DNA of 64,000 bases, taken from Diphasiastrum complanatum (taxonomy: Eukaryota; Streptophyta; Lycopodiopsida; Lycopodiales; Lycopodiaceae). A program made the translations under genes and the position numbers. Position 1 is the first letter of the stretch, and the number at the start of each line of letters is the position of its first letter. The DNA lies in the NCBI GenBank assembly GCA_029204225.1, contig CM055092.1:82105786-82169785 (forward strand). The letters run 5' to 3'. Shown here in pieces: positions 4,562 to 34,945 of the stretch. Below the pieces are notes generated by a model. That model was not told the DNA's origin and ran no database searches. It saw only the letters and a program-made list of their open reading frames with translations.

Positions 4562-5210
4562 ATAAGACAGGCGAAAAACTCGTCTGTCTGCATAAATACA
4601 AGTAAATTTCCACAGGCGAAAAAGGTGAAAAACACGACACTGTGTTTTTACACGTGATTTGTGACCGACAAAAAAGACAACACTACCTTACAAAATGCTG
4701 AAGGTGTCCTAGGAAATGCGAAGACACCCTGTAAATCAAATATTAAGGCATTTCATCAGAGTGTCGCATTTTTCACATCTTCACCAACGTTTATTTCAGC
4801 AAAGGCTGACGTCGCGGCCTTTTCACGCTCATCCCATGCAACTGTGCTAACATATTTGACAACGACAGTAGCCACCCACGATCTCCTACAGACAGCACAT
4901 CCACTTTGTACTTTCTTCATCTACACACTTGTAAAATTGTGTATATATTGAATACCACTTGCGTATTCAGTGTGTGTGAAAATAATTGCATTAGAAGATT
5001 ATCAGAGATAGACGAAGTAGATGCCTTGCGCATTGATTCTTTTGTATTGTCAATAATAGGTTCATTCCTTTCTACAGATTGAATTAGCTGCGTAGAGCAT
5101 GCGGTTTCGTCTGCTATTGTCTTGTGCTCCACAACATTATTGTCATGTATATTTTGCCATACTTAATCTGATAACAACTCTGTTGATCTGCGTTCAAATT
5201 TGTGTCGATA
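4562..5210 (+). repeat. Copia-A 3' LTR, right part
   Basis: It matches 14285-14952 almost throughout, including the TATA-like TTGTGTATATATTGAATACC near 4930 and the AGATAGACGAAGTAGATGCC segment. The homology stops at about 5210, before the true LTR end (15437 in the other copy), so the last 500 bp are lost or replaced by the next repeat. Confidence 0.8.
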
Positions 5211-5886
5211 TGTAAAAATTACAGCAAATAAGGATCCTAAAACACTTGAAATGATGAGGGAAACAATAGATTATGATTTCATAAGATTAGCACAAGTTGA
5301 ACCATCAAAATCCATCAAAAATCTATGCTTGAACCTCACGTCCAAATCCTTGAAGAAGGCTTCACACGTGTGAAAGTACGGCCTCCCACAGTCTGAGTAC
5401 TGTACACCAGACCTACATTCAATCCTATAATCATTAGTAATCACAAGTACTCAAACAATTATGAACATAGAGAGCAATTGCACCATTATGAGAGAAAAAA
5501 CATGAAATTGCTTGATTGATTTTGGTGAGATATCATCACCTATATATACATGATCCATCACGGTTTTGGGCAGGTATGAGTAGCCCTAAACCTATCCCTA
5601 ATGCTAATTTTGGTGGATCTTTCATCCCTACCAAGTTAGGATTGGAATCTTGGAGATCCCTCAACAATGCAAAAATTACCAAAAATAGCTCCTATTTTTT
5701 CTCCCTTGTATCTAAGCATAATTTGGACTCATTCCAAAGGTTCTAACACTTAGGTCTACTTGAGAACATTCTTATGAATGGAATCCTATGCTATTTGGCA
5801 CGTGTGACAAGCCACATCATGACCATCTAACTATTTACAAGTCATATGACCAAAACTAGTCAAGCTAGAATTGTGAATTTTTAACA
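5211..5886 (-). repeat. Copia-type LTR remnant, minus orientation
   Basis: In plus orientation it ends TTTTTAACA followed by a pyrimidine-rich ACACCCTCTTTCTCC. On the minus strand this is a polypurine tract followed by TGTTAAAAATTC, the same arrangement as Copia-B at 35798 (TGTTAAAAATATC). The left edge coincides with the point where Copia-A LTR homology stops. No target duplication was found, so it is probably the 3' end of a truncated minus-strand element. Confidence 0.4.
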
Positions 5887-7640
5887 ACACACCCTCTTTC
5901 TCCAATATCAATTACTCTCAATGTCGACCCCCAGTCTATCTGGTTTCAAGATAACTGCATGTGCATGATTGGGAATCCTATGTTCCAAGGAATTGTTTCA
6001 ACCATGGTGTATCTATATAAAAGATGACTGGGTTGATTCTTAGCTTGTGACAATGTGTTCCAATTGTCGCAAGTATAATCCTCACTCCTGTGTTCCAAGG
6101 AGATGAGGGTTGGTTTCATTAACTGACTAAAAGACACCTATATCTCATACACTCGACAATTCACACTTAGGAAAATTTACTTAAATTCCCACACATTCAA
6201 TCACTTCAAGTCTAATGATGACTGTTAAGCATGTCAAAAAGATATGTGATAGCATGTAGCCTATGAGTTTTCTAAATGTGGCACAACCTTTCCATATGAT
6301 TAATTTTGCGTTAATCCTGACCTTGTACGTGTGGTACCTTGGTACAGGAAGTAAAAGCGTGTCTTCGCCGCGTCTCAGGTGGCATAAGCGTGAAGGGCGA
6401 GGCCCATGTTAATTTCAGAATGGAAAAGCACCGGGAAAAAACCCATTGTCTCAAGAAGTGGGCCGGCTGTCTAAAGCCATGGTTGAATCAGAGCGTTAGA
6501 GGGTAAGGGCCAAATCTGTGCGGCTGAGGAGATTTCACGCTGGATCACCTGCTTGGTGTTAGAGTCTTTAGAGGGTGAGGAGGCCATGTTAGCAGTGATA
6601 GCTAAAGGGGAAAAAAGTAGGAAAAATGGTGGAAAAGGTAAAAAGGTATGGAAATGATGGAAAAATATGAATAACGAGTGTTGGATGGCGAGAACTGTAG
6701 TTCAGAGCGCAGATTTGTGTTCAATATAAGCAGATGATAGCTTGTAAGAAGTTTGGTCGCAAACAGAGAACTTGGAAATTTCAGTGAAAATTTGAGCAGA
6801 GCTTCGCCAACAAAAGTGACAAATGACTCGAAATCAGCCCTTATATAGCGAAATTTAGAGTGCATATTAGGTGAAATCCACTTTTCCTTGTTCAGTTCCA
6901 CCCAAATTTTGGCAGGGACCTTCTTCACAAAATTCTAAGACCTCAAAGAAGTCTGCGAGAGTTTAGAAGGTGATTTGACTGCCCTGCGAAGGTTCTGCGA
7001 GGGTTCAGACTGTCTGCGAGGGTTCAACTCTCGCAAGAAGTGATCTCTCGCACAACATGTTCCTATGATTGGATTTTCAAGATCAGACCATGTAGGCAGG
7101 CTAATTTCACTGTTCTGATTCCATTTAGGTACCTTGCGAGGGTTGGTAGGATGATCTTGATGCTCTACGAGGGTTCTGAAGATTTAGCTTCTAGGAACCC
7201 TCACACACACTCAAAAATAAAGATTTTCTTATCAAGAACTCTCGTAGAGATTTTTATGGATGCATCTGGGTTCTATCTAGTGATTGTCCAAGTTTCAAGA
7301 GCTACCTCCTAGGGATCTCCAAAAATCATGAAAGAGGTACTCTTTTAGAGTGTTTTTTGACGAGATCTGGAGATTCTCTGATTTTTAACTTTTGCAAACT
7401 GGTATTTAGCTTCATTGATGCTTGATCTGACTGTTGGTAGTTCTCTGGAAGTTCTGATGGACATTTGGTATAGATCCATCAGTTTTGGATGAATTTTGCC
7501 CTTAATTTTCCATAGTTACTGAGATCGAGGTCTCTGATCTGCAAATTTAGGGGACTTATTGGCATAATCTGATGATCTGCTTCCTTCTTGATCCCATATG
7601 GATATGGATCCGGATCCCTCTCGAATTTTGATGGATTTCT
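5887..7640. other. Non-coding stretch, probably retroelement UTR/LTR debris
   Basis: No convincing gene was found. The first 300 bp continue to the right of the minus LTR remnant and may be its 3' untranslated leader. From about 6350 to 7640 the sequence carries repeated CTGCGAGGGTTC-like phrases (6936-7175) and lies 3' of the minus-strand gypsy that begins at 7771, so it may be that element's 3' UTR and LTR, but I could not find matching LTR ends. Confidence 0.3.
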
Positions 7641-25668: not shown

Positions 25669-26177
25669 TACTACTTTTTGATTTTCATGGATGAATTTTC
25701 ATTGAAGGACTTAGAGCCCAACGAGGGCCTTTGAAAAAGATGCTTTTTTATTTTTTTTCTTATTTTCGTTGCCATGTGGACCAATTGAAACCTTAGCTTC
25801 GGGGTTCTACGTATTGTAGAATTTTCCAAATATAAATAAAATAAAAACTTTTTAAATATATTGTTGTTTTGTCAAGCAGCATGTGGAAATGCTATTGGTT
25901 GATGAGGCTTGCCCTTCCAGCTCATCACTGCCCGAAGAGACCCAAAAATATTGAAAATGAATATGACAGATGGTTGAAAAGAGAAAATCGATGTACCATT
26001 AATGTATATGCATTGTCAAATCATGGTTAACATGGATAACCGGAGTTAATTTGTGGGGCCAAATAGATCAGTGTTTCAAATTTTCGCCAACACTTTTTTT
26101 CAAATTCATGGCTTTTTGTCTACGCAAATTTTCAGATTCATAGTTCATTGTTTCAGATTTTTGCATGCAAATTACGA

Positions 26178-27542
26178 ATGGTGCCATCAAGGAAGCCGTG
26201 CTCCTCAATCGACTATGTGCTCCTATTCAACGAGACAGATGATAATGGATTATGGGTGCCAAGAAAATATTCAAAAAACTCTTGGGTTTTGATGCATCCA
26301 TCATCACGAGGAGCATTTCGAAAAAGGAAAAGGTCAAAACTATCATTTCGATCTTATTGGAAGGCCAAATTTTTGGATTTCAGAACATCATCAGGAGAGA
26401 AATCTACTTATGAAATTCTAGTCCAACATGTATATATGCATTCAGAGATGAATGTGCAAGGATTCAACCGTCAGGATCACCAAAAAAACAATTGTGAGTA
26501 TTGATATTTTTGATACTTTGATTTTTGTAATTCATAAATATCTATAGTAAACTTGCCAATCTGATCATTTTTCTCTTGCAGATTTATATCCATCCAACAT
26601 AAATGAATGGGAACTGAGTGAATATTTAGCAAATGTATTAGATGTTATTCACACTGATATTGGACAGCTGCAATATCGAGGTAGAACTGCAAAAGATCTA
26701 GCTGATAGTAGAATCTTTTTTTATGAATCAATGTACATTCTTGATACAAAAGGAAATTTTGGACAAATAGTACCAATTTCATTACCTAGTTTTTAAAGTG
26801 ATAAATGGATTGCATCAGCTGCTACAGTTTCAGAATCATTTCGTTGCAAGATATATAATGATGTAAAAAATTCATTAAAAATGAACACGGGATCAAAAAT
26901 AGTCAAATTGAGTTGGTTTATTTCCTTGAATATATTTGTGGATTTCTTTTCAAGTGTCAATGTTCACAAAACCCCAACGATGTTTGTATGCAAAAATTTA
27001 TCAGATAGTTTATTATTTGAACTTATGGATGAAGGATGGGACAAAAGATCAGATGGAGAAATAGAATGCAAAATTAAAATGTCTTCCATGTACTTTTGTT
27101 ATCAAATTGAAAAACAAATGTTAAGCTTATGCTTCCATTATCAAAGATGGAAAAGAAATAAAGGTAAATGGGTGCCACTCGATCAAGACTTGGAAGCCAG
27201 TGGACATTCAAAACGAAAAAATATTGAAATTATATACAATGATGCCGTTTTGACATGTGTTGAGGTGGAAGAAGATTGGAGTCTAAACTACATCCGGCGG
27301 GAACTATTTCTCCTATAAGATGATGTACTTTCAGACTTCAGATTCATTTTCAATGGTAAACTCGTAAGTAGTTGTAAACACTCGATCTTTTAAGAATAGT
27401 TTCAATCAAAACTTTCTAATACAATTTCTGTACTAATTCTAACTAACTTTGTATTAGTTTTATGCAAGTACGTAAAAGACATGAGCTCGAGATCAAATGC
27501 AGAGATATTGGCAAAACAATCCAACTTATGGAAGAATATTGA
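26178..27542 (+). pseudogene. Multi-exon gene of unknown function, broken
   Basis: The ATG at 26178 opens MVPSRKPCSSIDYVLLFNET. A clean GT-AG intron lies at 26494-26581 (GTGAGTATTG to TTCTCTTGCAG) and the reading frame joins in phase to LYPSNINEWELSEYLA. The frame runs through an in-frame TAA (26794-26796), a long open stretch (26881-27315), another TAA (27316-27318) and a second donor-like GTAAGT at 27364, with an acceptor at 27457. The last part, with WSLNYIRRELF and SDFRFIFNGK, has the look of a small ubiquitin-like fold, but this is only an impression. I do not recognise the family. It converges on the minus-strand C48 gene. Confidence 0.5.
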
Positions 27543-27741
27543 GATTCAGTATCAACAAATACATGCCAATCATCATGTCTTTTTATCATTATAGGAAAAT
27601 TGAATTCCATTATTAGACTATGGACATAGATTGATTGTAAGAATCTATTGTGATATCAATAAAAAAACTCATAAACGGGTTGTTTACAAGTAAAATGATT
27701 GTATCTTTTTTTTTTATCTCTCTCTATTTACAAATAGGTCT

Positions 27742-29018
27742 CTATTTAATCAATTTTTCTATATTTTCTATATCAGTATTAGGAACTAATAAAGCAACAA
27801 CTCCTTCTATAATCTCCCTCTCCTCTGTTTCGGGAAGGGCCTGAATGCCTTTTAAGGCAAGAGGAATATCTGCTACAAAATTGCCTTCCTCTGTATTAGG
27901 AAGGACTTTTATTCCTTTTTGATCATATAAAATAAGATCTGCATCCTGAAGAACTTGAAAGGCTGTTAAGGCAGGAGCAGATTTCTTTTGAGGGCCCTCG
28001 ATTGCAGGTGCAACGCTTACACCGTATTGGGCAAAGGTTTTGATCAACTCTTGCCGAAATCTATATACATCACCAAGAGTATACAGCTCAAGAGTGAACT
28101 GTCATCACAAAACACAAGAATCAGCAAATTACAAACAATGATAGTAATAAAATATGAATCAGAATGAAATGAACTACAAATGAATAGAATATTACCTTTT
28201 CGATATCTACATCCGTTTGTAATATATACCATTCAAAAAATAGCTTCGTATTGTACAGGACGAACCATGCACAACTAAAAGCGTCATTTTGCTGTACACA
28301 CTACATATAGAGAACAGATATTAGTTATATTATGATAGAAGTTTTATTTATGCTATGATGATACATTTGATTTAAGAAAAGAAATACATGCATATCAGAG
28401 ATAAATTGAATATACCTTCAGAGATTTGATGGTTATATCTCCAATTGAAGTTGCCGTTGTCGGTATTTCCCGAACGACATCATGAACTAGAGAATCAAAT
28501 TCTGTATGTGTATTTGCAGCTGAGTTTAATTTTACACAAAAAATTTGCCTCCTTATTTATCTTTACAAAAAGAATGTTAGGGCTCCAATGCCGACTGCAA
28601 CAACCAAGATACAATTATCGATAAATTCATATTTATGAAAAAATTCCGTTCTTATTAACGCAATGAGGCATGCAACAATCCAGAATAAAGCAATAAAACA
28701 AAAGAGCAATCCTTACTTATTTTCATATGGAATCAAATAGAATTTTGCCATAGGATTGCACTCGATAAAATAGACAGTCTTCTCAAAATTGGCTTCTTTC
28801 GCCTTTACCGCTCCCATGAAAAATGGACTAACTACAAAAACTGTACCATGGGAATCGAAACTAATACTATTCTGCAAAAATGAAACACCGGCCTCTACTA
28901 TTGCATCTGAAATTTTTGAGGTCCTATCTTTAAGCTTGGCACAAAATTTAGGACCTAATCTAAAGGTTCTACATATATCTGGAAGAAAAAAAATCAAAAA
29001 AGTTGCCGAGAAGATCAA
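27742..29018 (-). pseudogene. Ulp1/SENP (peptidase C48)-like cysteine protease, four exons
   Basis: Four exons are supported by GT-AG signals and matching phases: about 28978-28717, 28594-28416, 28300-28196 and 28098-27742. Motifs occur in C48 order: FYLIPYEN joined by splicing to NRHW (catalytic His-Trp), FDSLVHD (catalytic Asp), then QQNDAFSCAWFV (oxyanion Gln and nucleophile Cys). Such proteases cleave SUMO or related tags, and transposon-borne versions are known. A one-base frameshift lies within exon 2, between the NRHW and FDSL segments. The C-terminal exon has an unrecognised region rich in Ala, Leu and Glu. The first acceptor has a strong T-rich tract (28979-29010), so the gene must have an upstream exon, most likely the H3-like ORF. 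Confidence 0.65.
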
Positions 29019-29184
29019 TTTTGTTAGCTAGGTAGGCCTCGTATTGATTATAATGGTTAGAATAAAAAAAAACCTAGGCTGGATCGTATGGAATTCTCAC
29101 AAAAAAATTATGTACAGGAGGGGCAGAAAGAGAAGTGGAAACAATATTTACATATTTCCTTGTTATTTTGTCTGATGAAACCTG

Positions 29185-29808
29185 CTAAGGAGCTGGACGA
29201 ATAACAGGAGGAGGACTGGGTGAAGATTCTCGATCTGAGTCAGATTCTCCAGCATCTGACTCAGAGCTCAAGATGACACGGGGTCTTTTGGCAGGGATAT
29301 GTCTAGGAGGAAGGTAAGCAACTGGCCTTCGAGATCCAGCCTTCTTGGGGACAGCCTGCTTTTTCTTCATCCTAGAGGTAGTCGGCACGTCGGTTCTATC
29401 CAGGGACATGTTTCTGGAGGTGCTGGCATTATCTACATGCAGACCAGAATATCTGTCCTGAAGCTTTTTGAGAATGACGAAATCCTTTGGCATGATGGTG
29501 ACACGCTTACCATGCACTGCCAAAAGACAAGTATCTTCAAAAAATTGGGACAGAAAATCTTCTACAGCACCTGGCAAAGCCTGCATGGCTGTCACGACAA
29601 AACGAACATCAAGCCCAAGTGACAGAGTGACATTTTGGACAGATCGACCGAAAGGAGTCCTAGGGATCATTAATTTAGTTGATCTCTGGAATTTTCTGAT
29701 CTCCGTAAGCCAGACCTGCTTCCTGTCATGCCTACGGCCAGTACCAGGGGGAACATGGGAATGCGATGGCTATACAGTGGTGATGGCACGAGCGGTGAAT
29801 TTAGTCAT
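29185..29808 (-). pseudogene. Divergent histone H3-like protein with long C-terminal tail
   Basis: From the ATG at 29808 the frame begins MTKFTARAITTV, echoing the H3 tail, then a TAG (codon 13). Reading on, TEIRKFQRSTKLMIPRTPFG corresponds to the alpha-N helix, VRFVVTAMQALPGAVEDFL to alpha 2, and FFEDTCLLAVHGKRVTIMPK to the loop and alpha 3 region of H3, collinear and without gaps. Loop 1 has the length of ordinary H3, not the longer loop of many CENH3 proteins. After KKLQDRYSG comes a tail of about 85 residues rich in Lys, Arg, Ser and Pro, absent in ordinary H3, with SDAGESDSDRESS. It ends with TAG at 29187-29185, but the same frame stays open for some 35 further codons. Confidence 0.75.
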
Positions 29809-29879
29809 GACTATCATTCTCGGAAGAAGAAAATTAACAAAAAGAAGTTTGAAATAAACAAAAGTGGATCAAAACAAAA

Positions 29880-30250
29880 AAATTTGCGACGAAAGGGAGT
29901 TTGAGATCGATACCAACACTGAACATCGGTCTCAAGCGCAAGATCTACAGAGATTATATGTAGAAAAAAGATGTGCGCTTGAAAGCGATATTGCACAGCA
30001 GGCAGTATCGGATTCAAGCGCACTGTGAGAGAGCGGAAGCCTGAAGGATGAAAGATTGCGCTTGAGAGCGATATCGGGAGCTAAAAGCGAGAATTTTGCG
30101 AAGAAAAATAAATATTTTTAGGGCTTATATATACGAAATTTTTGCACGTGTGAAAAAACGGCCGAGACATGTGTCGTCAAATTATTAGACCACGTGGAAT
30201 GTCCGTTCTGATTGTGATATACCAATTATGAGGCCACGTGGGCTGAGACA
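29880..30250 (-). promoter_or_regulatory. Promoter region of the H3-like gene
   Basis: On the minus strand TATATATAAG (30124-30133) lies about 320 bp upstream of the H3-like ATG, with CACACGTGC just upstream of it (30146-30154). The stretch between TATA and ATG has three copies of GCGCTTGA-like words. CACGTG G-boxes are dense from here to 30960. The proposal that one intergenic region serves both directions is an inference. Confidence 0.4.
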
Positions 30251-31345
30251 TGTGTGCGAATCCTTGATCGACGCGTGTCATTCTCGCACGTGACAGATGT
30301 CAGATCTATCCTTTTAGGTACGGTGCATTTATTTTGCCAATCAAAAGTCGACACGTGTTCCTTCGTCACTTTTCCTCACGTGCAAAATAATTTTATAAAT
30401 AGATCTTTTTGGGCATGGATTCTCGCGCAAATTCACGATTGCTTTGCCGGATATCGATTTCAAGTGCGCCGCTTGCTCTCATTACAACTCGTTGGCTATT
30501 ATGCGCCTGGGTCTGATACTGCATCGTATGGTATCGAATTCAAACGTGTCTCGCATACCTTTTCTTTTCTGGTCGTTGTTCTTGTGCTCGGATCTGATAC
30601 TCCAACTTCAAAAACCTCTCTCGAGCACTCGTTGATTGGACGTGCTTGTCGGACCAGGGGTTTGCGCCTGAGAGCGATATCGTTTTTTAAAATGTCTAAT
30701 TTTGAATCCAGTTTACTTTTTTTTTTTAATGAATTTTTGAGACACATGTCGTCTGATGATTAGTCCATGTGGAATGTCCATACTGACAATGATGACCAGA
30801 TTATAAGGACACGTGGGCTATGACACGTGCGCGAATCCCTTGACGACACGTGTCATTCTCGCACGTGACAGATGTCAGATCAATCATTCAAGGTACGGTG
30901 CATTTATTTGGGCCAATCACATATTGACACGTGTTCCTTCGCCACTTCTCCACATGTGCAAATTTTTTTTTATATAAATAGGTATTTTATGGCTTGGATT
31001 TTCATGGAAATTTACGATTGCTTTGCCGGATATCGATTTCAAGCACGCCGCTTGCTCTCATTGCGTCTCGTTGACTATTATGCGTCTGGATCCGATACTG
31101 CATCCTCTGGTATCGCATTCAAGCGCGTTTCGTATCCCTTTTCTTTCCTGCTCGTTGTTCTTGCGCTCAGATCCGATACTCCAGCTTCCAATATCTCTTT
31201 CGAGCGCACGTTGCCTGGACTCGCTTGTCTGAACTGGTGTTTGCGCCTGAGAGTGATATTTGAAATTTCAGTTCTGTTATTTATGTTTAAAATGTCTAAT
31301 TTTGAATCCAGTTTGGTTTTTTTTTTTAATGAATTTGGTATTACT
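30163..31345 (+). repeat. Tandem 0.6-kb duplication of promoter plus gene start
   Basis: Two direct copies with a period of 600 bp (ATGTCTAATTTTGAATCC at 30692 and at 31292). Unit 1 is about 30163-30748, unit 2 about 30749-31345. Both contain CACGTG boxes, a TATA box (TATAAATA at 30394; TATATAAATA at 30971), the segment GATTGCTTTGCCGGATATCG and the start of the plus-strand acidic gene. The long open frames in each copy (169 and 172 residues) run antiparallel to this logic and are unlikely to be proteins. Confidence 0.75.
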
Positions 31346-32240
31346 GATAGGTTGGACTATTTCAAATCCCTTTTTTCTCCTTTTTTTTAATTCTACCTTC
31401 TATAACTGAGGACCCTGGTGTGGAGGCATTTTCTGAGATATATCTCAAATTTAAGTCCCTACTTAGTACTCCGTTATTCAGGTCTCAAAATAAAGACATG
31501 ATTCATTATCAAGACTTGGTGGCACTCGACAAGCATATCTATAAAGCTAAGCTTGACAGAATGTTTACCAAGTTAAGTAATGATTTCAAGTCGTAGATGA
31601 GTGCCCAATTCATAATAAAAAATGTAGATTTGTTGATTTTCAGTCTGCCTTTTTTTTTTTTTTTTTTTTTCTTTTGTTAAATATTTCTGACGATTCGGAC
31701 TCTGTGCCCTCCACTTCTGAAGCAGCTTCTTCTAGTGGTACAAAGTCTGAAAAGTCAAAGATTGTAGATATAGAAACCTTTTTTATTGATACGAGTGTTG
31801 ATTTAGATGACTGTTCTGATTTTGATCCTGCTCGAGATAGGTCTACCTTTATAGGCCCTAGAACACCCACCACCCTTTCTCCTTCTGATAAATGTTTGAT
31901 CACTTTGCCTACTTCTAATATAGATAATAATTTCTTTTTGACAATATCGGATATATCAGATTTTTTTGACTTCACTAAAGCTGAGACTCTTTGTATTTTG
32001 AGCAAAAAGCTTGATGAATTTTCGGATATTATTGATTTTGATGCTGATGATCTTCTCCCTAGTGTTGACGATGTACATAATGATAAATTTTATTCAGGGA
32101 AAGATTGCTTGAAAATGGCTATGGAGGAAGTGCGCAACAAAGAAGATGATCTGCCTTCTGAGGAGGAGTTTCTTAGAATCCAAAGTCAACTTGCCAACTG
32201 TCTATTCACCAACAATATTGACATCAAAAGGTGGACATAA
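31292..32240 (+). pseudogene. Acidic Ser/Asp-rich protein of unknown function
   Basis: The ATG of the second promoter copy opens MSNFESSLVFFFNEFGITDR. After a T-run frameshift near 31390 the frame continues with EDPGVEAFSEIYLKFKSLL and LVALDKHIYKAKLDRMF, a stop at 31595, and after a 22-base T run (31651-31672) a 188-residue frame with NISDDSDSVPSTSEAASSS, then many Asp/Glu/Ser-rich stretches to LPSEEEFLRIQSQLANCLF. No known domain is visible. Homopolymer T runs are the sites of the frame breaks. It is divergent from the H3-like gene, with which it seems to share an intergenic region. Confidence 0.4.
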
Positions 32241-32348
32241 TATTGACGGTGAGATAGTAATCAGAGAAGACAAAGCCGAATGTGTAAGTTTTTGTCTCTT
32301 ATCAAGTACTAGTAGATTTTTTATGTCAGATTATATACTGGAGCTTAC

Positions 32349-33890
32349 TTGTCATCGTTTTTTATTTTAATGTGGCCTTTATGTAAGCCTGCTTTGGACA
32401 ACACATCCTCTAATATGGAAATAGCTTCCTTTACAGAGGCCTCTGGCTTGGAATTCCATGCAAACAAGATGTGAAGATATATTATTTTTTTTATAATACG
32501 CACATCCGCATGCAACGTACAGATATGAACATTTCATAGAGGAATCGGTAGTACAGGTTTCCAATTAGGATCTTCTCGATCTCTTGATATTCCTGTACTC
32601 CTTGTGATGTTTGCTGTTTTCATGCAGTACAAACAAGGGTGGTTAGAGTTGGTGCCATGAGATACATTGAACATACATTTTAATGTCTTCAGATCTCCTG
32701 CTAAATGCCATTCAATGTTGAAAGTGCCAATTCCAGGAATATTGAGTGTAACTCCCTCCATGTGATTTTTTATGGTGGCAGGATATGATGTTCTATCAAA
32801 TATCCATGAGAGAATGTTATTATCTTCTTTCAACACCTATAAGAGAATACAAAAACGTGATTAGCCTCATAATATGAACACGGAGAAGATTTTAGATATG
32901 AAATCCATATTCAAATGATTATCCCTATTTACTATGCGAAGGAACTGCTATACCTGAAATGCTGTCAACCACCAGATATCATTTTCTGATTGAACACTGA
33001 ATATTGAGGCCTTTTGAGTCCTCTGAATTTGAAAGTGCTCCATTCATGATTGTGAGACAACTCTTTCCATTTTTTGTCCTTTTATAATTTCAGACTCATC
33101 TAACTTGAGAACAACCACCAACTTATTATTGACATTCTCATTTGTAATACCGTAAAAATCTATGATGAATGTTAATAACTGATTAATGTCAATAAATAAA
33201 TTGTTGGAATTGTTATATGCTAGACTTTGTCCTTTTGAGCAATACACTTCATTGATATGAGATGGATTACCAACTATTGTCTACATACCATGGTCTAACA
33301 TGTCTCCTTTTTTTTAAAAGATGAAATGGTCGTGGGATTGGAAACTTTTTAATATTTACCTGTGCAAATGCCTCCTTTACCATCTTTAATAAGAGACAAA
33401 TATGAGATACGTATGGATTGAAATGCAATTTTTATCTCATCAATACTAGTTGTATAATGATGCAAAGAAGATTTCAACCTTTGGATCTCCTCTTTGAGCA
33501 TCTCATTTTCATCCAAACAAGTTTTTATCTTTGTAGATTTTTCTTCGCACTCCTTTGATATTTTCCTTGATTCCTCTTCCAAATAATGTATCTTTGCATT
33601 GAATGTGCATTCCTATAGAGCATCAAATTCTCAGAGTAACCCAAAAGGCCATTTTTACCATGACACATATAGATTATTAACTGACTCACCGAATGAAAAT
33701 TTGGATGTTGCAATGAACATGGATCAATAGGATACAATGTTCCTGATGACCATAAATCTACATGTTTTAGCTTTTCCTCCCTGTATCGGACCATATCAGA
33801 AGTTGACAATTTGGGTTGCTTTGAATTTCTCGTCCTGAGCGGAGCATATTTTGGTGACAGATCCACATGAAGATGATAAAGCTTTGTCAT
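32349..33890 (-). pseudogene. Multi-exon transposase-like gene (GDLK/CxxC/LH family)
   Basis: Exons at about 33890-33690, 33612-33360, 33280-32954 and 32836-32349, separated by GT-AG introns (for example GTGAGTCAG to CTCTATAG). The first encodes MTKLYHLHVDLSPKYAPLRT; the second a coiled coil (CLDENEMLKEEIQRLKSSL); the third KLVVVLKLDESEIIKGQKME; the fourth EWHLAGDLKTLKCMF, HPCLYCMKTAN and ICTLHADVRIIKK. The pattern GDLK, CxxC and a following LH/R helix recalls a widespread, poorly characterised transposon-derived family. I do not claim the superfamily. In-frame stops occur in exon 3 and near 32538, and the join of exons 2 and 3 is out of phase by one base. Confidence 0.55.
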
Positions 33891-34143
33891 CAGTACAGTA
33901 ATATAGTAACAAACAACACAATGACAATAACAAAGCTGGAGATGGCGCTAATGACTCTACTGGAGATAGAGATGGCATAGGCTTTCTTTAGAAATGTCAC
34001 TTCTAATTCAAATTTTTGAGTGTTCCCAACTATTAAGAGGAAATGTTTCAGCATTTTGAGAGATTATATTTTAACTATAGTTAAACACCAATGAAGTTTG
34101 ATGTGACGAAACTAAGGTGCATTCATCTACATGGAAAGTAGTG

Positions 34144-34945
34144 GGGGCAGATGCGTAAAGAAGTTAGAAAATGATATTATAATTACTTTATAGTTATTTT
34201 TCTCTCTCCTACATGGCATTTCTTATAGGGCCCTCTTTGGGCCCACTCTAATGAGAGAAGCCTAGGAGAGTTAAAGAATCTCCAAGAGCCTCCATAGGCT
34301 TATGGAATGTCAAGAGACTCCTTCCATAACCTATGACTCTTTGAATGCCTTTCTTGTGGGAGTTGGGAACTCAATGGACACTTTAGAAGGGCGCCCTCCT
34401 ACTAGGTCCCATTGCCCAAGTTGTGCATATATACTTTGGTCCTAGACCAATTAAGTGATATGGTTCAAGGTTGAGACCCAAAGTTTAGAAAAGCATCATA
34501 AATGCCTCTACTCGGCTAGAGAGAGAAAATAGCAAGTACAAAACTCGTGGAGAGAGAGAGGGCACAAAGAGCTTGTCTCCAAATTTGCATTACACACAAA
34601 TTTCATCATCTTCTCAATGAGAGTACATCACATATATATAGATCCATGGACTCTTCTCCTACTTTGAGTTGAATTGGAGTTGTGGATCCACCTCTCAAGC
34701 TATCTAGACTTATCCAAGCCACCTCACTATGTCTAATTGTGCCACATAGTCTTTTCATGCATTAAATGTGGCATGTAAAGTACAAAATGGCAATTCCTAT
34801 GGTAGATCGAGTTTCTACTTCTACCTACCTTGAATATTTTATTCTAAGATGAGTCTATACTAAGCCAAAAGAGCTCAATTCATCTTTGGCATTTTTAGGA
34901 CACATACAACATTAGATAGATTTTTCAATATTTTGACATTCCACT
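34144..34945. other. Non-coding between the gene island and Copia-B
   Basis: No gene was found. It contains GGGCGCCCTCCTACTAGG near 34390, a phrase similar to GGGCGCCCTACTACCC at 25585, which raises the possibility that the same older repeat flanks both sides of the island. A short GA repeat lies near 34550. Confidence 0.35.

Follow-up and report, generated by a model that had tools for sequence, protein, structure and literature searches.

A histone H3-like fold fused to a Ulp1/C48-type protease in a transposon gene of Diphasiastrum complanatum

On one strand of a 64,000-nucleotide stretch of Diphasiastrum complanatum DNA (C1:82105786-82169785; hereafter the window), a frame encoding a histone H3-like fold is followed directly by exons that resemble a Ulp1/C48 cysteine protease. 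A preliminary description of this locus, made from its letters alone, proposed that the two may form one fused gene, which raises the questions of whether the fusion is real, what kind of gene carries it and what a histone joined to a protease could do. These questions were addressed by searches of the 1.74-Gb assembly (5176 contigs). The gene in the window, here called gene B, is a decayed copy of a four-exon H3–protease fusion gene (Table 1), and it belongs to a repeated mobile element rather than being a lone host gene.

The exon borders, starts and stops of the window parts were verified letter by letter. Gene B begins at 29817. Within exon 1, whose donor GT lies at 28716-28715, the H3 fold occupies about 29458-29720. 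The H3 frame contains three in-frame TAGs (29770-29772, 29185-29187 and 29074-29076), and the gene carries two frame lesions, one near 28990 and one near 28545 in exon 2, where an alignment with four other copies shows a gap of 8 bases; the two TAGs and one frameshift counted previously are thus too few. At these TAG sites, the open copies L009, L010, L012 and L014 carry Gln (CAA or CAG), except for L009 with Lys at the first site (29770-29772). The preliminary description had also read a T-rich tract at 28979-29010 as the splice acceptor of a protease exon, separated from H3 by 167 bp and requiring a further exon upstream. However, this tract is coding (about NFFDFFLPD) and lies beside the frameshift of the window copy, and the supposed 167-bp gap does not hold either. 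Neither the acceptor nor the upstream exon is needed, because exon 1 runs from H3 into the protease unbroken in open copies. Wherever both parts were seen, the DNA between them contains no intron, and an intron ahead of the protease, which no open copy needs, was ruled out.

Table 1. Positions of the element, its genes and related features (window coordinates unless a locus is named).
Feature	Position	Strand	Remarks
Whole element	25700..34253		8554 bp; bounded by inverted repeats that start with CATTAGAG (CATTGAAG at the left end of this copy)
Gene A fragments, conserved protein near left end	26067..27318	+	ORFs; family 2 homologue, 54-60% identity
Gene B, H3–protease fusion, decayed	27742..29817	-	3 TAG and 2 frame lesions; open relatives
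Gene B exon 1	28717..29817	-	N-tail, H3 fold, long linker, protease start
Longest open H3-like stretch, window copy	29185..29769	-	194 aa, then TAG
Gene B exon 2	28416..28594	-	HW (catalytic His) motif; GT-AG borders; four-copy alignment
Gene B exon 3	28196..28300	-	QQND...SCAWFVL, i.e., oxyanion Gln and catalytic Cys
Gene B exon 4	27742..28098	-	Protease C-terminal part and tail; stop TAG 27742-27744
Region between divergent genes B and C	29861..31250		Two direct copies and 11 CACGTG
Gene C fragments, conserved protein, divergent to B	31331..32383	+	tblastn to other copies; family 2 homologue
Gene D fragments, presumed transposase	32348..33392	-	LKLDESE ... GDLKTLK ... PCLYC
Third family example	L013:4829-6079	-	H3-like, long polyproline runs

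A Pfam histone search of the genome gave 6325 rough candidates, and the best 153 matches listed comprise 13 ordinary H3 genes at 163.7-165 bits followed by a long tail at 110 bits or less. With the window H3 protein as query, the weakest of the best 150 matches listed (from 7549 rough candidates) is 75% identical, with an E value of 1.1e-90; the first protease exon gave a best 150 matches from 3967 rough candidates. To examine whether the two parts are joined elsewhere, 29 sequences were compared, i.e., the window, L002-L004, L009, L010, L012, L014, L018 and L019-L038, of which L009, L010, L012, L014 and L018 had been picked for long open frames and L019-L038 had been sampled stepwise down the H3 match list, not for openness. 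Using a 370-aa L010 query, a one-frame alignment without stops was obtained across both parts in L009, L010, L012 and L014, and a fifth stop-free copy, L037, aligned from residue 11. The remaining 24 of the 29 sequences show stops, frame breaks or partial alignment, with L018 and L026 reaching only residues 289 and 293, respectively. The same exon borders were found in an alignment of five copies. In L012, the gene encodes 591 aa in four exons (4873-5999, 6123-6309, 6424-6528 and 6626-6982), and all of its introns are GT-AG. L037 and L009 are not intact genes, because acceptors are mutated from AG to AA (the first and third in L037, the second in L009).

Used as a single query, exon 1 of this family (family 1) gave at least 110 matches at at least 109 loci. 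Among the 109 loci listed, which are the best-scored places, favouring open frames, and include some near-identical duplicates on small contigs (as does the corresponding list for family 2), 98 carry stops and 11 have a stop-free matched stretch. Residues 1-375 are covered in full without a stop at five of these 11 loci, the query's own copy included. C117 and C10, both among the five, share 99.7% identity over 10 kb, flanks included.

A second family with the same layout of H3, linker and protease was found in five (L047, L049, L050, L053 and L054) of 16 diverse histone-bearing stretches examined (L039-L054), with frame breaks in L047 and L049. L054 encodes 470 aa, with introns placed as in L012; the two proteins are 38% identical over 502 aligned columns and share the exon plan. 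Exon 1 of family 2 as a single query gave at least 122 matches; among the 122 listed, 24 are stop-free, all covering residues 1-327, and the other 98 carry stops. When viral contigs were scanned for relatives of the family 2 protein, five pattern matches were obtained, none of them related.

The search of this genome for intact copies, suggested in the preliminary description, thus yielded copies open over all four exons in two families. The fusion is not a product of chance, because the fused exon is found at at least 122 (family 2) and at least 109 (family 1) places. Two neighbouring genes or an assembly accident might be suspected from the window copy, which has TAGs and a frameshift between the parts, but one open frame spans both parts on different contigs and in two families, making this reading extremely improbable. 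It is almost certain that gene B fuses an H3-like fold to a C48-like protease in one protein, as proposed at the outset, since the frames are continuous in other copies and two families only 38% identical retain both parts and the intron positions, with selection on both parts as described below.

The assignment of the first part to H3 holds well by sequence. The longest open stretch of the window copy matches the Pfam Histone family PF00125 (E 6.7e-21, 75.2 bits, cut-off 26.4), the H3 chains of solved structures match the window H3 part at about 71-72 bits, and the best 60 of 176 matches to structure chains are all H3 types. A single-sequence structure model of the window H3 part had a pLDDT of 48.9, was unusable and gave no structural match. 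Residues H113, D123, R129, R116, V117 and T118, which belong to the H3-H3/H3-H4 interface and the DNA-contact loop, are retained in the five transposon rows tabulated. The same alignment shows three exceptions, since R129 is Lys in the window copy, D123 is His in L047 and V117 is Gly in L049. R63 is replaced by Pro in four of the five tabulated rows and by Leu in the fifth, R83 by Pro in the open copy L012, and C110 by Leu in families 1 and 2. The layout of H3, with about 136 aa and a full lysine-rich tail, was not encountered. The N-tail is shortened and lysine-poor, with K9, K27 and K36 missing in the rows alignable there, and a long C-terminal fusion follows the fold. The protein starts with MARTKxTAR in family 1, which is H3-like including K4, and with MDRRKQTRR in family 2. 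As judged from these residues, nucleosome assembly by the transposon histone appears doubtful, because of the changes at R63, R83 and R129/D123 and the missing tail lysines.

Two further types of transposon histone were encountered. The third family comprises L013 and ten of the 16 diverse stretches (L039-L041, L043-L046, L048, L051 and L052), and L042 represents a fourth type. The third-family protein ends with the H3 fold (RRERN or similar) and, where its N-terminus is in view, begins with MARTKQTAR (L013, L041 and L052) or MAQTKQTAR (L040), after which comes a long stretch rich in proline. In the stretches of 2.7-10 kb around the third-family H3, no protease was detected.

The transposon histone fold is 45-53% identical to the genome's own H3, and relative to H3 and CENH3, family 1 adds a linker of about 170 residues and the protease. 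LIPxAPF (families 1-3) and Thr at Q85 (families 2-4) are reminiscent of plant CENH3. In the rows compared, identity to H3 equals or exceeds identity to CENH3, except in F4_L042 (45% to H3, 47% to rice CENH3). A small tree placed ordinary H3 and two plant CENH3 together, apart from the transposon histones (0.947), and separated families 1 and 2 from the rest (0.967). A CENH3 origin of the H3 part, at which single residues hint, was rejected, since the tree does not suggest it, though long branches may affect that tree. Host CENH3 was not found as a separate match in the genome; the gene is spliced, so this says little. Likewise, the way in which the family 1 H3 matches are spread gives, by eye, no support to centromere targeting. 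The tree would fit one capture of H3 followed by one fusion (or a loss), a weak reading because the branches are long.

The spliced protease part of L054 matches PF02902 Peptidase_C48 (E 2.7e-11, 44.2 bits, cut-off 20.7). The protease part of L012, which is of the window's family, falls below the Pfam cut-off (14.4 bits, E 0.034), and the protease stretches of the window, scanned singly, gave no accepted Pfam match; the family 1 protease is tied to C48 through its 38% identity to family 2. The Ulp1 chains 6dg4 and 1euv match the family 2 protease at E about 1e-3, and HW, Gln and Cys of L054 align with Ulp1 and SENP2 chains. His, Asp, Gln and Cys motifs in C48 order had been reported for the window. 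Three of these stand, as the His, Gln and Cys motifs occur in order (RHW/DHW, QQND and SCAW/NCGW), in the window exons also. However, the Asp is not clearly present, the candidate catalytic position being Asn in both families (INSAANTH and MNSTRNTH) in a part where the alignment is gapped. The protease is thus like Ulp1/SENP enzymes in the order of its HW, QQND and Cys motifs and, for family 2, in its PF02902 match, but it differs from them in the Asn at the expected Asp, in a divergent N-terminal half and in the attached histone fold.

That gene B lies in a transposon can hardly be doubted. The element is 8.5-9.9 kb long and carries four genes, A(+), B(-), C(+) and D(-), between termini CATTAGAG; homology among copies ends at the two borders given for the window. 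Exact ends were found in the genome 184 times for the left and 465 times for the right, and 0 times for reversed controls; the element is present in hundreds of copies at least. Among the ends listed, three copies have both exact ends paired (8.5, 8.9 and 9.3 kb); a listed H3 match lies inside two of them (C1:33132269 and C2:45470317), and the third is C2:32225474-32234744. The flanks around these three and around a 9.9-kb copy on C577 are unrelated. The family 2 element around L054 measures 8681 bp between perfect 35-bp inverted repeats, also starting with CATTAGAG; it contains homologues of A, C and D, whose order and relative orientation match those of family 1. The element thus shows the terminal inverted repeats and the dispersed copies in unrelated flanks that characterise a TIR DNA transposon. 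No target-site duplication was seen by eye in four two-ended family 1 copies or in the family 2 element. Four copies that share the window's flanks (C1:82.05, 82.09 and 82.13 Mb, the last being the window, and C10:23.38 Mb) were ruled out as separate insertions; they are segmental duplicates, one of them on another large contig. As a separate observation, C1:48.4-50.3 Mb (1.9 Mb, mid-contig) contains 14 exact left ends out of 26 listed for that contig but none of the C1 right ends listed; the left ends possibly form a local array.

Gene D is conserved and multi-exon, and is presumed by inference to encode the transposase. The scanned pieces of genes A, C and D gave no accepted Pfam match, and the Pfam matches of gene D pieces of both families included no MULE family at a threshold of E 10, where HMMER filters drop most weak matches. 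A homologue of gene C was also found beside a third-family H3 (34% over 64 aa, E 4e-12). At L063:1182-1604, the start of gene A reads in-frame into the presumed transposase, apparently by an internal deletion or rearrangement. Outside the left end of the element, L010:8818-9399(-) and also L011 hold a 194-aa open frame with IADIPYGF, which by eye resembles a DPPY-type methyltransferase.

Genes B and C diverge from a common intergenic region in which two direct copies, 30164-30736 and 30739-31336, are 80.5% identical, the second reaching about the start of gene C. The CACGTG (G-box) sites of this region run from 30145 to 30933 and occur nowhere else in the element; a further 24 lie in the remaining 55 kb of the window. 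With palindromes counted twice, the region has 22 occurrences, compared with an average of 0.5 and at most 6 in plain shuffles. The three further copies in which G-boxes were counted have arrays as well (4, 6 and 5 sites), and the family 2 element has six sites within about 236 bp of its B-C interval. In addition, TCAAGCGC is repeated in the shared B/C promoter region of the window (29861-31250).

Pooled pairwise dN/dS was calculated for 26 family 1 copies (27 minus L002, a duplicate of the window copy). The H3 fold gave 0.42 (0.26-0.67; the ranges cover 95% of codon resamples) and protease exon 1 gave 0.39 (0.26-0.58), compared with 0.91 (0.72-1.18) in the linker and 0.61 (0.33-1.38) in the short N-tail; the pairs are not independent, and the contrast within one gene is what counts. 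Ten copies chosen to be stop-free gave 0.48, 0.49, 0.93 and 0.59 for the H3 fold, protease, linker and N-tail, respectively. Both folded parts were under purifying selection, and the linker was not. The H3 fold is not poorer in stop codons than the linker (15 in 2259 codons and 19 in 4430, respectively, with 4 in 1961 for the protease and 3 in 813 for the tail). By eye, TAG is the commonest stop in the decayed copies among the matches listed. This excess could stem from C-to-T change of CAG in methylated copies; against a CAG origin, the first TAG site of the window reads CAA or AAG in open copies.

These values bear on the reading that the H3 and protease pieces are passengers of passive capture, as in a fungal hAT element. 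Capture of host genes by transposons is described as common (PMC13317346), and most of the places listed carry stops. However, dN/dS is about 0.4 in either domain but 0.91 in the linker, and families only 38% identical retain the fusion, the exon plan and the order of the genes, which makes passive capture quite improbable.

For the function of the gene, the best explanation is anti-silencing, in which a transposon-encoded, histone-guided Ulp1-type protease counters silencing; we put its probability at about 0.45. H3 pairs with H4, and Ulp1-type enzymes remove SUMO. The H3 part would pair with H4 or bind H3 chaperones or readers, and would thereby bring the enzyme to chromatin, where the protease would remove SUMO or a similar tag from silencing proteins present on the element. 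Removal of the tag would allow the element's genes to stay expressed, and the stretch kept open may be the G-box-rich promoter common to genes B and C. The protein would then be a VANC/KIU-like anti-silencing protein of the Vandal type, but one that addresses chromatin through a histone. SUMO has been reported to promote silent chromatin in yeast, plants and animals (PMC8131101). Counting against this explanation are the Asn at the candidate Asp position, the family 1 protease score below the Pfam cut-off, the altered H3 residues and missing tail lysines, and the stops in most of the places listed.

An alternative is that gene B serves transposition itself, the histone part tying the complex to nucleosomes or H3-H4 chaperones for target choice and the protease trimming the element's own proteins or regulating the complex. 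Gene B travels with the presumed transposase and with genes A and C, an arrangement that two families share, and proteases that process a mobile element's or virus's own proteins are common. However, the family 1 H3 matches listed are spread over many contigs with no obvious target by eye, and a transposition role seems unlikely. A slightly less likely alternative is self-processing, in which the linker would be cleaved and the free H3-like histone would replace H3 or act as a decoy for H3K4 writers or erasers. The nearly neutral, spacer-like linker would suit such a role, as would the family 1 start, which resembles the H3 tail including K4, and the third H3 family, which keeps MARTKQTAR where seen (once MAQTKQTAR) and has no protease detected nearby. 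On the other hand, no cleavage site was seen, Ulp1-type enzymes usually cut after the Gly-Gly of a SUMO-like fold, and the family 2 start is a poor mimic.

Returning to anti-silencing, a more far-reaching version, which we hold only tentatively, is that DNA transposons of one lineage, perhaps a superfamily not yet described that makes no target-site duplications, captured H3 a single time and made their own variants from it, and that in one branch such a variant was fused to a SUMO-type protease to give a histone-addressed enzyme that edits host silencing chromatin. If true, the histone would be the homing device of a parasite's effector and, as far as we know, the first histone encoded by a transposon to have a task in the life of its element. 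Such a protein would also be a natural reagent with which the part played by SUMO in silencing transposons could be tested directly.

To our knowledge, transposon-borne H3 has so far been known from fungi only. No fusion of a histone to Ulp1 was found in the titles and abstract openings listed by searches of an open-access library. Among plant elements, Vandal VANC proteins counter silencing, and some of them carry a Ulp1 domain of unknown function (PMC13317346; PMC10398659). Like the Vandal and KIU (Kaonashi) MULEs, the element described here is a plant multi-gene DNA element with a Ulp1-type domain joined to another part (PMC13317346), and in both cases the domain resides in an accessory gene; a VANC-like role is proposed here by analogy. 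In contrast to those elements, no MULE transposase match was found here, and inverted repeats form the ends (CATTAGAGAAA for copies of family 1 and 35 bp for the family 2 element), whereas Vandals are described as non-TIR (PMC13317346). The pieces of genes A, B and C gave no VANC-type Pfam match, where Pfam may hold no VANC model. Furthermore, the partner of the protease here is an H3 fold, and the word histone is absent from the main text of the Vandal and KIU review (PMC13317346).

In fungi, a hAT element of Pseudocercospora and relatives amplified H3 to hundreds of RIP-inactivated copies, and tens of H3 copies in Pyrenophora tritici-repentis may be active, according to the abstract of PMC6710886. 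The hAT element and the element described here are both DNA transposons that carry and amplify an H3-like sequence. However, that abstract mentions no protease fusion, and the histone here is a diverged variant that is fused and whose fold is constrained. Transposons with H3 (in fungi) or with Ulp1 (in plants) are known; in the element described here, the two are joined in one gene that is open in two families and whose two domains are under selection.
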